From positions 1 to 46,788 of the forward strand of contig JAGHUJ010000174.1 in assembly GCA_018064905.1 (NCBI GenBank): 46,788 bases of DNA, written 5' to 3'. The notes under the pieces are model-generated. The model saw only the letters and a list, made by a program, of their open reading frames with translations. It did not search any database and had not been told where the DNA came from. The position numbers were made by a program, and so were the translations under genes. Positions 28,070 to 46,640 of this stretch are shown here, one piece after another (within the stretch, counting starts at the first letter, position 1; each line of letters begins with the position of its first letter). This DNA comes from Candidatus Treponema equifaecale (GTDB taxonomy: Bacteria; Spirochaetota; Spirochaetia; Treponematales; Treponemataceae).

Positions 28070-29557
28070 ATGATCGACTTGAATAAAGATTTTAGAAAAA
28101 GAGTTCTTGGTGTAAGCCTTGCAATCATGGCAATTGCCTTTGTTGTAAGCACAGGAGCAAATGTATTTGCTCAGACTGCTGAAGCAACTGCTGTGGAAAC
28201 ATCTGCTGAAGACGCTTACCTCAGTGGAACTGAAGATGCTGTTTCAACAGGAACAGGTCTTAATAGAGTTATCAAAGGAACTGAAAACTGGGGTGATTCA
28301 AAGAACATCGATCCAGTTAAGTTCTTGAGCAATATTGGTAAGTCAACAGGCTTCTACAAAATGTTCGTTCAGTCTAAGGCTGATGCTGATGCAGAAGCTG
28401 CAAGAAAGGCTGCTGAAGAAGAAGCTGTAGAAGAAGGAAATGCTAAGTCTTGGGGAACAGCTCCAGGCTGGCAGTCATTCCTTATGATGGCTATCGGCTT
28501 CCTTATCGTATACCTTGGTGCTGGCCGTGGATTTGAACCACTTCTTTTGATTCCAATCGGATTTGGTACAATTCTTGTTAACGCTGTTGGTGCTGGAATG
28601 GGTAATCTCCCAGACGGTATGCTTGCTATCATCTACAAAGCTGGTGTTGGTAACGAATTCTTCCCAATGCTCATCTTCATGGGTATTGGTGCTATGACTG
28701 ACTTCGGTCCACTTATCGCTAATCCAAAAACAGCTCTCCTTGGTGGTGCTGCTCAGTTTGGTGTATTCTTCACACTCTTTGGTGTTGCTGTTTTGAACAT
28801 CTTCGGTCTTGACTACAACATCATGCAGGCTGGTGCTATCGCTATCATCGGTGGTGCTGACGGTCCAACTTCAATCTACGTTTCTGGTAAACTTGCTCCA
28901 GAACTTATGGCTGTAATCGCTGTAGCTGCTTACTCTTACATGGCTTTGGTTCCAATGATCCAGCCACCTATCATGAAAGCACTTACAACTAAAAAACAGC
29001 GCTGCATCCACATGGAAAACCCACGTGCTGTACCAAAAGTAGAAAAAATCTTGTTCCCAATGATGCTTCTTCTTTTGACAATCCTTCTTTTGCCACCTGC
29101 AGCTCCACTTATTGGTATGCTGGCATTCGGTAACTTCGTAAAAGAAGCTGGTGTAGCTCAGCGCCTTTCTAAGACAATGGAAAATGAATTGATGAACATC
29201 GTTTCTATCCTCCTTTCTCTTGGTGTAGGTTCTCAGATGACTCCAGAAAAGATCATCCGTGGTGAATCACTTGGTATCATCGTTCTTGGTTTGGTTGCAT
29301 TTGGTGTTGCTACTGCCGGCGGTATCTGTATGGCTCATGTGATGAACCTCTTCATGCCAAAGGGCAAAAAGCTCAACCCACTCATCGGTTCTGCTGGTGT
29401 ATCAGCTGTTCCAATGGCTGCTCGTGTTGCTCACAAAGTTGCACAGAGCGAAGATGCTACAAACTTCATCCTTATGAATGCAATGGGTCCAAACGTTTCT
29501 GGCGTTATTGGTACTGCAATTGCTGCGGGAGTATTTATCGCAACTTATGGAAACTAA
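28070..29557 (+). CDS. oadB: Na+-transporting decarboxylase beta subunit (OadB/GcdB family) with N-terminal extension
   Basis: Membrane subunit that couples decarboxylation of carboxybiotin to Na+ export. From about residue 135 the protein follows the family: [38 protein letters not shown], the Asp-containing [14 protein letters not shown] and [12 protein letters not shown] near the C-terminus, within about nine to ten hydrophobic helices. The first ~130 residues are extra: a signal-like helix ([24 protein letters not shown]) then an acidic Ala/Glu-rich segment. At 495 residues it is longer than the usual 375-435. It is the last pump gene; its stop lies inside a 71-bp duplicated unit. Confidence 0.93.
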
Positions 29558-29691
29558 CAGTTTCCATAAGTTGCTTAACAAGAATCTGCTATGCAGATTC
29601 TTGATCGCTTCGATATAAGGGAAACTAACGGTTTCCATATGTTGCTTAACAAGAGTCTGCTTCGCAGATTCTTGATCGCTTCTTTATAAGG
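29549..29691 (+). repeat. 71-bp tandem duplication covering the oadB stop codon
   Basis: Copy 1 is 29549-29620, beginning with the last codons and stop of oadB (GGAAACTAAC); copy 2 is 29620-29691. Each contains the hairpins GGAAACT/AGTTTCC-like and AATCTGC/GCAGATT, and ends TATAAGG. The copies differ at only a few bases. Confidence 0.85.
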
Positions 29692-44883: not shown

Positions 44884-45759
44884 ATGACACAATTCACATC
44901 CCTCACTTCAACTTACAAACTTTCCAACGGCGTAGAAATTCCTTGCATTGGTTTTGGAACATGGCAGAGTGCCGACGGTGAAGAAGCCTATAATGCTGTA
45001 TTTGCCGCACTTAAATCCGGATATCGACACATTGATACAGCAACCGCTTATGGAAACGAAGAGAGTGTAGGACGGGCCATAAATGACTTCTTAAAAGAAT
45101 CAGGAGTTCCTCGAAGCGAACTTTTCATCACTACAAAACTCTGGAATCCTGACCACGGCTACGAAAGCTGTCAGAAGGCCATTGATCTTTCACTTCAGAA
45201 ACTTGGTCTGGACTATCTTGACCTTTACCTCATTCACTGGCCAAATCCGCTTAAATTCCGTTCTGAATGGCAGCTTAAAAATGCAGAAAGCTGGAAGGCA
45301 ATGGAAGAAGCTTATGAAGCAGGCAAACTCCGGTCAATAGGTGTTTCAAATTTCTGCGAGCGTCATCTTGAAGAACTGATGAAAACAGCAAAAATTGCAC
45401 CAATGGTAAATCAAATCAAGGTTTGTCCAGGTCAGCCCCAGCAGGCCCTTGCAGATTACAGCCGAAAAATGAACATGGTGGTTGAAGCCTACAGTCCTCT
45501 TGGTACCGGCGGAATTTTCACCAGCTCAGAAATGCAGGCTCTTGCAGCTAAATATAATAGAACAATTGCGCAGATTTGTGTTCGATGGAGTCTTCAGATG
45601 GGCTGTCTCCCGTTGCCAAAATCAGTTAAAGCAGAAAGAATCACAGAAAATGCACAGGTTTTCGACTTTGAACTGGATGCAGCAGACTGCCAGAAAATTG
45701 CAGAGCTCACAGGCCTTGATATAAAACCTGCACGAAATCCAGACGAAGCTCCGTTCTAG
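44884..45759 (+). CDS. Aldo/keto reductase
   Basis: NAD(P)H-dependent carbonyl reductase, 291 residues. The catalytic tetrad is complete: Asp51 (HIDTATAYGNE), Tyr56, Lys85 (TTKLW) and His118 (YLIHWP). VNQIKVCPGQPQ replaces the more usual NQIE-x-HP. The C-terminal LPLPKSVKAERITEN motif binds the nicotinamide cofactor phosphate, suggesting NADPH. GGAGG precedes ATG 44884; the longer frame from 44773 runs across the promoter and is rejected. Physiological substrate unknown. Confidence 0.92.
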   Translation: MTQFTSLTSTYKLSNGVEIPCIGFGTWQSADGEEAYNAVFAALKSGYRHIDTATAYGNEESVGRAINDFLKESGVPRSELFITTKLWNPDHGYESCQKAIDLSLQKLGLDYLDLYLIHWPNPLKFRSEWQLKNAESWKAMEEAYEAGKLRSIGVSNFCERHLEELMKTAKIAPMVNQIKVCPGQPQQALADYSRKMNMVVEAYSPLGTGGIFTSSEMQALAAKYNRTIAQICVRWSLQMGCLPLPKSVKAERITENAQVFDFELDAADCQKIAELTGLDIKPARNPDEAPF

Positions 45760-45771
45760 TTTTGTCATAAG

Positions 45772-45882
45772 GGCGTGCCGGAGCCTGCCCATTCGGGACA
45801 GACTCCGTCGGGCTTTGCGTGGTTTCAGTACCGGCAGCTGCGCTGCCGGCACCGCTGTCGCGCCACTCCAATCCCTCACGCA
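45772..45882 (+). repeat. Dispersed palindromic repeat (GGCGTGCCGG family), copy 2
   Basis: GGCGTGCCGG at 45772-45781, hairpin CCGGCAGC/GCTGCCGG (45831-45849), and the end block 45853-45882 matching copy 1 with three differences. Confidence 0.82.
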
Positions 45883-45916
45883 ACCACCCATCACATCAAT
45901 CCAGCCACTAAGTCAC

Positions 45917-46130
45917 AAAATTTACGGAGAAAAAACGCAAATCCTAAAAAATCCCCGTAAAAACTGCTGTTTCATCACGTAAATTCAATCTGCAGGATAC
46001 AAAATTTACGGAGAAAAATTGCAGATTCCAAAAAATCTCCGTAAAATCAGCTGTTTCATCACGTAAATTCAATCTGCAGGACAAAGAATTTACGGAGAAA
46101 AGTCGTAAATCCTAAAAAATCTCCGTAAAA
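45917..46130 (+). repeat. 84-nt-period tandem array of hairpins
   Basis: Three units: TTTACGGAGA at 45921, 46005 and 46089 each pair with TC(T/C)CCGTAAA at 45952, 46036 and 46120, always with a 21-nt loop and a near-identical 43-nt spacer between units. Unit 1 has one mismatch in the stem (C for T). This fills most of the 428-nt gene-free gap 45760-46187; the remainder is repeat copy 2 and AT-rich sequence. Confidence 0.85.
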
Positions 46131-46151: not shown

Positions 46152-46180
46152 TTCTCAATTCTTAATTTTTCCTGTATACT
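46152..46180 (+). promoter_or_regulatory. Promoter of the phosphatase gene (leaderless spacing)
   Basis: TTCTCA (46152-46157) and TATACT (46175-46180), 17-nt spacer; ATG 46188 begins 7 nt after the -10 box and lacks a Shine-Dalgarno. Confidence 0.6.
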
Positions 46181-46187
46181 TTCCTAC

Positions 46188-46640
46188 ATGCATAAGATAC
46201 TTTTCATTTGTCACGGAAACATCTGCCGTTCTCCAATGGCTGAGATGGTTATGAAGCACTTTGTTCGTCAGGCAGGACTGGAATCTCAGTTCTACATTGA
46301 TTCAGCGGCAACGGACTATGATGAAATCGGAAACGGAATGCACAGGGGAACCAGAATGATTCTGCGGGATAACGGAATTCCTTTTACAGACCATAGGGCC
46401 CGCCTTGTGACTCCGGATGACTACAATGACTTTGACCTTCTCATAATCATGGACAGTGAGAACCAGCGCCATTTAAAGCAGCGGGTAGGTGAGGACACGC
46501 AGGGCAAGGTTCACTATCTGCTGGAATACATTGGTCTGAACCGTGATGTTGCAGATCCATGGTACACCGGTAATTTTGAAGAAACCTATAGTGATGTGAC
46601 TGCAGGATGCAAGGCGCTTTTGGAAAGCCTCTGCAATTGA
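46188..46640 (+). CDS. Low-molecular-weight protein-tyrosine phosphatase
   Basis: A 150-residue cytoplasmic phosphatase. The P-loop is CHGNICRS at residues 8-15 (nucleophile Cys8, Arg14), and the general-acid loop is DPWYTG near residue 122, both intact. It likely dephosphorylates a protein tyrosine residue; a tyrosine kinase is not in this window. Start as ATG 46188, with a -10 box 7 nt upstream. tRNA-Lys follows. Confidence 0.93.
   Translation: MHKILFICHGNICRSPMAEMVMKHFVRQAGLESQFYIDSAATDYDEIGNGMHRGTRMILRDNGIPFTDHRARLVTPDDYNDFDLLIIMDSENQRHLKQRVGEDTQGKVHYLLEYIGLNRDVADPWYTGNFEETYSDVTAGCKALLESLCN

Follow-up and report, generated by a model that had tools for sequence, protein, structure and literature searches.

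The window (the whole 46,788-nucleotide stretch of DNA that was analyzed) contains, at 45917-46130, three 84-bp units, each of the type TTTACGGAGA-N21-TCTCCGTAAA, which are best explained, at a probability of roughly two in three, as a phased docking array for an oligomeric DNA-binding protein, an array that would grow by tandem duplication. Geometry supports the DNA-array reading well; the protein, its oligomeric state, and the purpose of the arrays are inferred. The arrays discussed below come from the genome of the window, Candidatus Treponema equifaecale (G000), from a horse-faecal Treponema MAG (G139), and from the Lachnospiraceae MAG RUI574 (G215), all of which are draft, metagenome-type assemblies. 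The window locus comprises the following features.

44884..45759, plus strand: aldo/keto reductase gene (PF00248), upstream of the array, from its domain
45760..45912, no strand assigned: GC-rich segment (GGGCGTGCCGG...CAATCCCTCACGCAACC), gained with the array between the two genes
45921..45961, no strand assigned: dyad unit 1, TTTACGGAGA-N21-TCCCCGTAAA, right arm with one mismatch, from sequence
45962..46004, no strand assigned: 43-bp spacer 1, 88% identical to spacer 2 and unrelated to the spacers of the other arrays
45974..45983, minus strand: degenerate extra half-site ATCACGTAAA, +22 from the unit 1 right arm and -31 from the unit 2 left arm, from sequence and fold
46005..46045, no strand assigned: dyad unit 2, TTTACGGAGA-N21-TCTCCGTAAA, from sequence
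46046..46088, no strand assigned: 43-bp spacer 2
46058..46067, minus strand: second copy of the degenerate half-site, in the same phase, from sequence and fold
46089..46129, no strand assigned: dyad unit 3, TTTACGGAGA-N21-TCTCCGTAAA, from sequence
46152..46180, plus strand: promoter-like TTCTCA-17-TATACT between the array and the phosphatase gene, a weak consensus match
46188..46640, plus strand: low-molecular-weight tyrosine phosphatase gene (PF01451), downstream of the array, from its domain

Window units have 10-bp arms, a 21-nt loop, and 43-nt spacers, repeated with an 84-nt period; this tandem geometry had been described in the initial annotation and is confirmed by TRF (period 84, 2.6 copies, 86% matches, score 343) and by the sequence itself. 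The three 10-bp stems claimed there hold for units 2 and 3, the only ones with perfect arms, but not for unit 1, whose right arm (TCCCCGTAAA) carries one uncompensated mismatch. Overall, the units are ∼80% identical to each other. The spacer stretch CGTAAATT lies 22 bp past a right arm and 31 bp ahead of the next left arm, and because of this placement it resembles a weak extra half-site. Elsewhere in the window (29549-29690) are two 71-bp tandem copies, 90% identical, with 25-nt and 16-nt inverted repeats; their sequence is unrelated to that of the array.

The simplest reading of the window array is that it was acquired later, in what had been an operon junction. In two relatives (G203 and G020), the reductase stop and phosphatase start overlap (TAATG), which argues that the array lies in DNA gained within such a junction. 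The gap between the two genes is ∼62 bp in G102 and 428 bp in T. equifaecale, where it consists of the GC-rich segment, the array, and the promoter-like stretch; partial copies (30 to 76 nt) of the GC-rich segment are found elsewhere in this genome, at C174, C93, and C105:24083. A different, repeat-like insert of ∼139 bp occupies the reductase-phosphatase junction in G067 (L108/L224), so this junction appears to collect inserts. The genes beside array loci are unrelated from locus to locus; thus, the arrays do not appear to be the operator of one pathway.

Across the three genomes (51 units), the half-site core TACGGAG (positions 3 to 9) is nearly invariant in both arms, and the arms are 31 bp apart in 41 units, 30 bp in nine, and 29 bp in one; GTAG is present in some right arms only (TCTCCGTAGG). 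Two further arrays in T. equifaecale, on contig 7 (five dyads) and contig 55 (four dyads), have the same half-site and arm spacing, and their dyads repeat at exactly 84 bp over four and three intervals, respectively. Their spacers are unlike those of the window (23 to 32% identity versus ∼26% in shuffles), the loops and spacers of different loci mostly have no relation to each other, and homology outside the half-sites is not clear among the three arrays of this genome. Within the contig 55 array, three of 20 half-site columns vary, compared to 54 of 64 other columns (Fisher p 2e-8), and no net insertion or deletion has shifted any half-site. Duplications inside the arrays comprise whole units of 84 bp (window) and unit pairs of 168 bp (contig 7). 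Single TTTACGGAGA half-sites in T. equifaecale are near the control count (9 versus 6).

Dyads, whose detection made no use of inter-dyad distance, are spaced by whole helical turns. Centre-to-centre spacings are 84 bp in T. equifaecale; 81.5 to 84, 93 to 94, and 73 bp in the horse-faecal Treponema; and 51.5 to 53, 61.5 to 63, and 73 to 75 bp in RUI574. These values of 51.5 to 94 bp correspond to 5, 6, 7, 8, and 9 turns at about 10.4 bp per turn, with a scatter of up to about 2 bp around whole turns in the latter two genomes. A phase test on 17 values (a single value for every junction that we considered non-homologous; which values count as independent was our choice) gave a Rayleigh R of 0.89 at 10.4 bp with a mean phase of 0.01 turn, to be read in light of the test having been devised after seeing the data and of spacings in one genome not being independent, as the arrays share ancestry and are partly related. 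No set among 200,000 uniform ones scored as high, nor did any of 20,000 in which the period could vary from 9.5 to 11.5. On contig 9 of the horse-faecal Treponema, spacing alternates between 93 and 73 bp, one turn either side of 83, which suggests that the middle dyads have been displaced by one full turn with 166 bp retained. Spacing by whole helical turns puts the sites on a single DNA face and points towards a protein that recognizes the duplex from that side. Among the explanations offered in the initial annotation, the protein-binding array is supported by conserved half-sites, arms 31 bp apart, and units at whole turns.

The distribution of the arrays is multi-locus yet patchy, covering two Treponema species and one Lachnospiraceae MAG of another phylum. 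A pattern search of 200 genus genomes found one further array-bearing species, the horse-faecal Treponema (five array loci), and a scan of a species-level genome collection added RUI574 (12 to 13 exact dyads; about seven array loci), which had no matching relative among the other 47 genomes drawn from its genus or the others of the 397 drawn from its family. With a broader core pattern, 274 Treponema-family genomes gave 11 matches in T. equifaecale, 13 in the horse-faecal Treponema, and no more than two elsewhere, similar to the reversed-pattern control. When one mismatch was allowed in the core dyad, we counted 12, 17, and 17 dyads in T. equifaecale, the horse-faecal Treponema, and RUI574, respectively, none in the reversed control, and one in total across seven close relatives. 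In the literature on repeats we found no Treponema array, and matches to the half-site string, among those listed, looked like unrelated primers or sequences.

Two loci of the horse-faecal Treponema (L182 3537-3950 and L181 5044-5500) carry the variant half-sites TTTACGGATC / GCTCCGTAAT, with spacings of 93 to 94 or alternating 93/73 bp, and form sub-families of the site. Single hairpins of the TTTACGGAGATTTGGAATTATAGGTAGAAATCTCCGTAAA type, with an arm distance of 30, occur in several uncultured Spirochaetales MAGs (L052, L053, L056, L059, L061, and L064); they are a separate repeat, whose loop is largely conserved. Many short viral contigs (L160, L162, L163, L167, L170-L173, L176, L177, and L180) contain an isolated TTACGGAGA-N20-CTCCGTAA with an arm distance of 29 and similar flanks. 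Single hairpins with arm distances of 27 to 36 bp also occur in isolation in other lineages; we treated them as terminators or unrelated repeats.

We propose that each 41-bp unit is a dyad, in which two inverted TACGGAG-core half-sites are three helical turns apart, with successive dyads a whole number of turns apart (eight in the window array), so that all half-sites fall on one face of the helix. A putative protein, the product of a gene elsewhere, would bind each dyad in duplex DNA as a dimer or larger oligomer and join adjacent dyads into one complex, yielding a looped, wrapped, or clustered intergenic segment; since the protein would oligomerize, the dyads would have to share one face. 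Whole-unit and unit-pair duplication, by which phase would be kept, may let the arrays expand and contract; the arrays probably sit in intergenic DNA added after the species diverged. Their purpose could be architectural or centromere-like clustering, or local transcriptional control, and the protein could be a chromosome-organizing factor, a regulator, or a mobile-element enzyme. A more specific proposal, which we put forward tentatively as a possibility, is that a trans-acting protein and its own phased dyad arrays form a dedicated system that has spread horizontally and become established at several sites on the chromosome in individual species from unrelated phyla, with a centromere-like, silencing, or chromosome-architecture role and no described counterpart.

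No regulator was found beside the arrays: an all-against-all comparison of flanking proteins returned only common paralogous or housekeeping families. In RUI574, a predicted AAA-ATPase/PDDEXK_9 gene (PF09820, PF08011; L055 1075-2658) has arrays on both sides, and the end of a similar gene lies just ahead of another array (L054). We rejected this PDDEXK/AAA-ATPase gene as the cognate factor, since it adjoins two Lachnospiraceae arrays and is not near the others.

The alternative that survives best, although we judge it unlikely, is that the arrays are a small mobile or satellite repeat (BIME-, REPIN-, or MITE-like), in which half-sites are kept for recognition by a transposase or recombinase and the arrays are spread debris without a cellular role; on this view, the protein that binds them would be an enzyme of the mobile element. 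The arrays are indeed interspersed, intergenic, and patchy between species, their duplications are tandem and higher-order, and the DNA that holds the window array was gained at an operon junction. In RUI574, an element of ∼234 bp with four dyads is present at several loci, and the similarity of two copies stops at the outermost half-sites. However, the T. equifaecale arrays have little in common beyond their half-sites, unlike transposed copies, and no target-site duplication was seen. The Y1 transposase domain PF01797 is absent from the horse-faecal Treponema, occurs as one contig-edge fragment in T. equifaecale, and occurs four times in RUI574, with no array near any Y1 gene. Moreover, drifting debris would not be expected to phase at whole turns over five spacing classes. 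The young satellite suggested in the initial annotation is supported in part, by the 84- and 168-bp duplications inside arrays. We rejected a phage or plasmid origin, as we found no phage match and only short, weak plasmid matches; pattern matches in viral contigs were solitary, lay outside any array, and almost always had another arm distance.

A much less probable alternative is an RNA element, in which tandem hairpins with two alternative folds would form a small-RNA cluster, an attenuator, or a processed transcript. The genes on both sides are co-directional, so the array could be transcribed, and both the hairpins and the whole array are predicted to fold stably: the 231-nt window region has a predicted energy of -46.5 kcal/mol, compared to a mean of -27.5 for dinucleotide shuffles (z -4.6; 0 of 200 as stable), arguing that its inverted symmetry is well beyond chance, and the predicted energies of units 1, 2, and 3 are -5.7, -11.5, and -10.5 kcal/mol. 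The two mutually exclusive folds noted earlier stand insofar as a competing stem is predicted in the window sequence (45974-46018 at -7.0 kcal/mol and 46058-46102 at -9.0 kcal/mol), which arises because each window spacer bears the partial half-site ATCACGTAAA; this stem is peculiar to the window locus, as it was not seen in the contig 7 and contig 55 arrays. We found no stem covariation over 39 distinct 41-mer units (score 0.063 versus a shuffled mean of 0.073). Most arm changes in the 51 units lack compensation (48 unpaired cells, 16 one-sided G-T, and eight two-sided), also at G-C core positions, and the two-sided changes are mainly at the outermost A/T position. On contig 18 of the horse-faecal Treponema, each of the five units combines a GGATC-type left arm with a CTCC-type right arm that does not match it. 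Together, these observations suggest that each half-site is kept for itself, counter to the earlier view that RNA structure is what is conserved. Neither a covarying stem nor an Rfam family match was found for the array, so we rejected an RNA family or conserved stem, and no terminator-like site was found; helical phasing, furthermore, would be meaningless for RNA. The RNA reading therefore fails two of the checks proposed for it, a search of relatives, in which the unit is absent, and covariation, as stem changes are uncompensated. The least probable alternative, ordinary and functionless local tandem duplication around a chance inverted repeat, would fit the overall identity among window units and the relatives without the array but is already contradicted, since both the half-site and the arm spacing recur in other genomes, another phylum included, and at further loci whose spacers are unrelated.

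Should the arrays serve to dock a single dedicated protein, they would represent an interspersed bacterial repeat constrained in DNA geometry rather than in sequence or RNA fold, and one common to single species of two phyla. They would also offer a defined bait with which to isolate a DNA-binding protein, and a way to test directly how interspersed phased sites affect a bacterial chromosome. The case shows how an RNA-like hairpin array can be distinguished from a DNA-protein array.

Among known systems, a CRISPR-like repeat-spacer array does not fit: the repeats alternate in orientation, the window spacers are 88% identical, and the plasmid and phage searches gave only the weak plasmid matches described above. 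The arrays resemble BIME/REP sequences, which are likewise interspersed, extragenic, regularly spaced inverted pairs of alternating orientation, patchy between species (PMC2817692, PMC3733652). REPs, however, are 20- to 40-bp palindromes with a GTAG or CGTC tag, usually number >100 in a genome, and are associated with RAYT transposases (PMC2817692, PMC3733652), whereas here the unit is a 10-bp non-palindromic half-site in tens of copies, with no RAYT link found, and spacing rather than linker sequence is kept. We therefore rejected the REP/BIME/REPIN class: the dyad interior is variable and GTAG is restricted to some right arms, a genome holds 12 to 17 exact or near-exact dyads (core pattern) rather than >100 dispersed copies, and a cognate RAYT is unlikely because the horse-faecal Treponema lacks Y1 and no array is near a Y1 gene. 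BOX elements of Streptococcus pneumoniae are likewise small, composite, and intergenic, and are built of tandem internal modules that vary in number (PMC3049150). There, sequence models recognize the modules over their length, and one genome has 125 elements (PMC3049150), whereas our arrays conserve only half-sites and geometry and lack boxA/boxC-like ends. Copies of the ∼234-bp RUI574 element are homologous over their entire length; the three T. equifaecale arrays are not clearly so beyond their half-sites.

The F-plasmid centromere parS/sopC consists of twelve 43-bp tandem repeats with a 16-bp inverted-repeat site, on which a dedicated protein builds one large complex (PMC6238139). Tandem repeats with inverted-repeat sites are common to both systems, with a protein complex known for sopC and conjectural here; unlike single-locus parS/sopC, the arrays are found at several places on the chromosome, each with three to seven dyads whose arms are 31 bp apart, and no par genes were seen near them. 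Operators of the Lrp/AsnC type (e.g., BarR) contain several sites two or three helical turns apart, with DNA wrapped around an octamer; each such site is a 15-bp semipalindrome, degenerate in sequence, and belongs to a target-gene control region (PMC10201364). Helical alignment is common to both, with wrapping seen for the Lrp type and conjectural here; unlike Lrp/AsnC sites, the array half-site is asymmetric, strongly conserved, and located between unrelated genes. To the interspersed repeats known from bacteria, the arrays add a rare variant that is patchy in its distribution and unusual in the constraint on its helical spacing.
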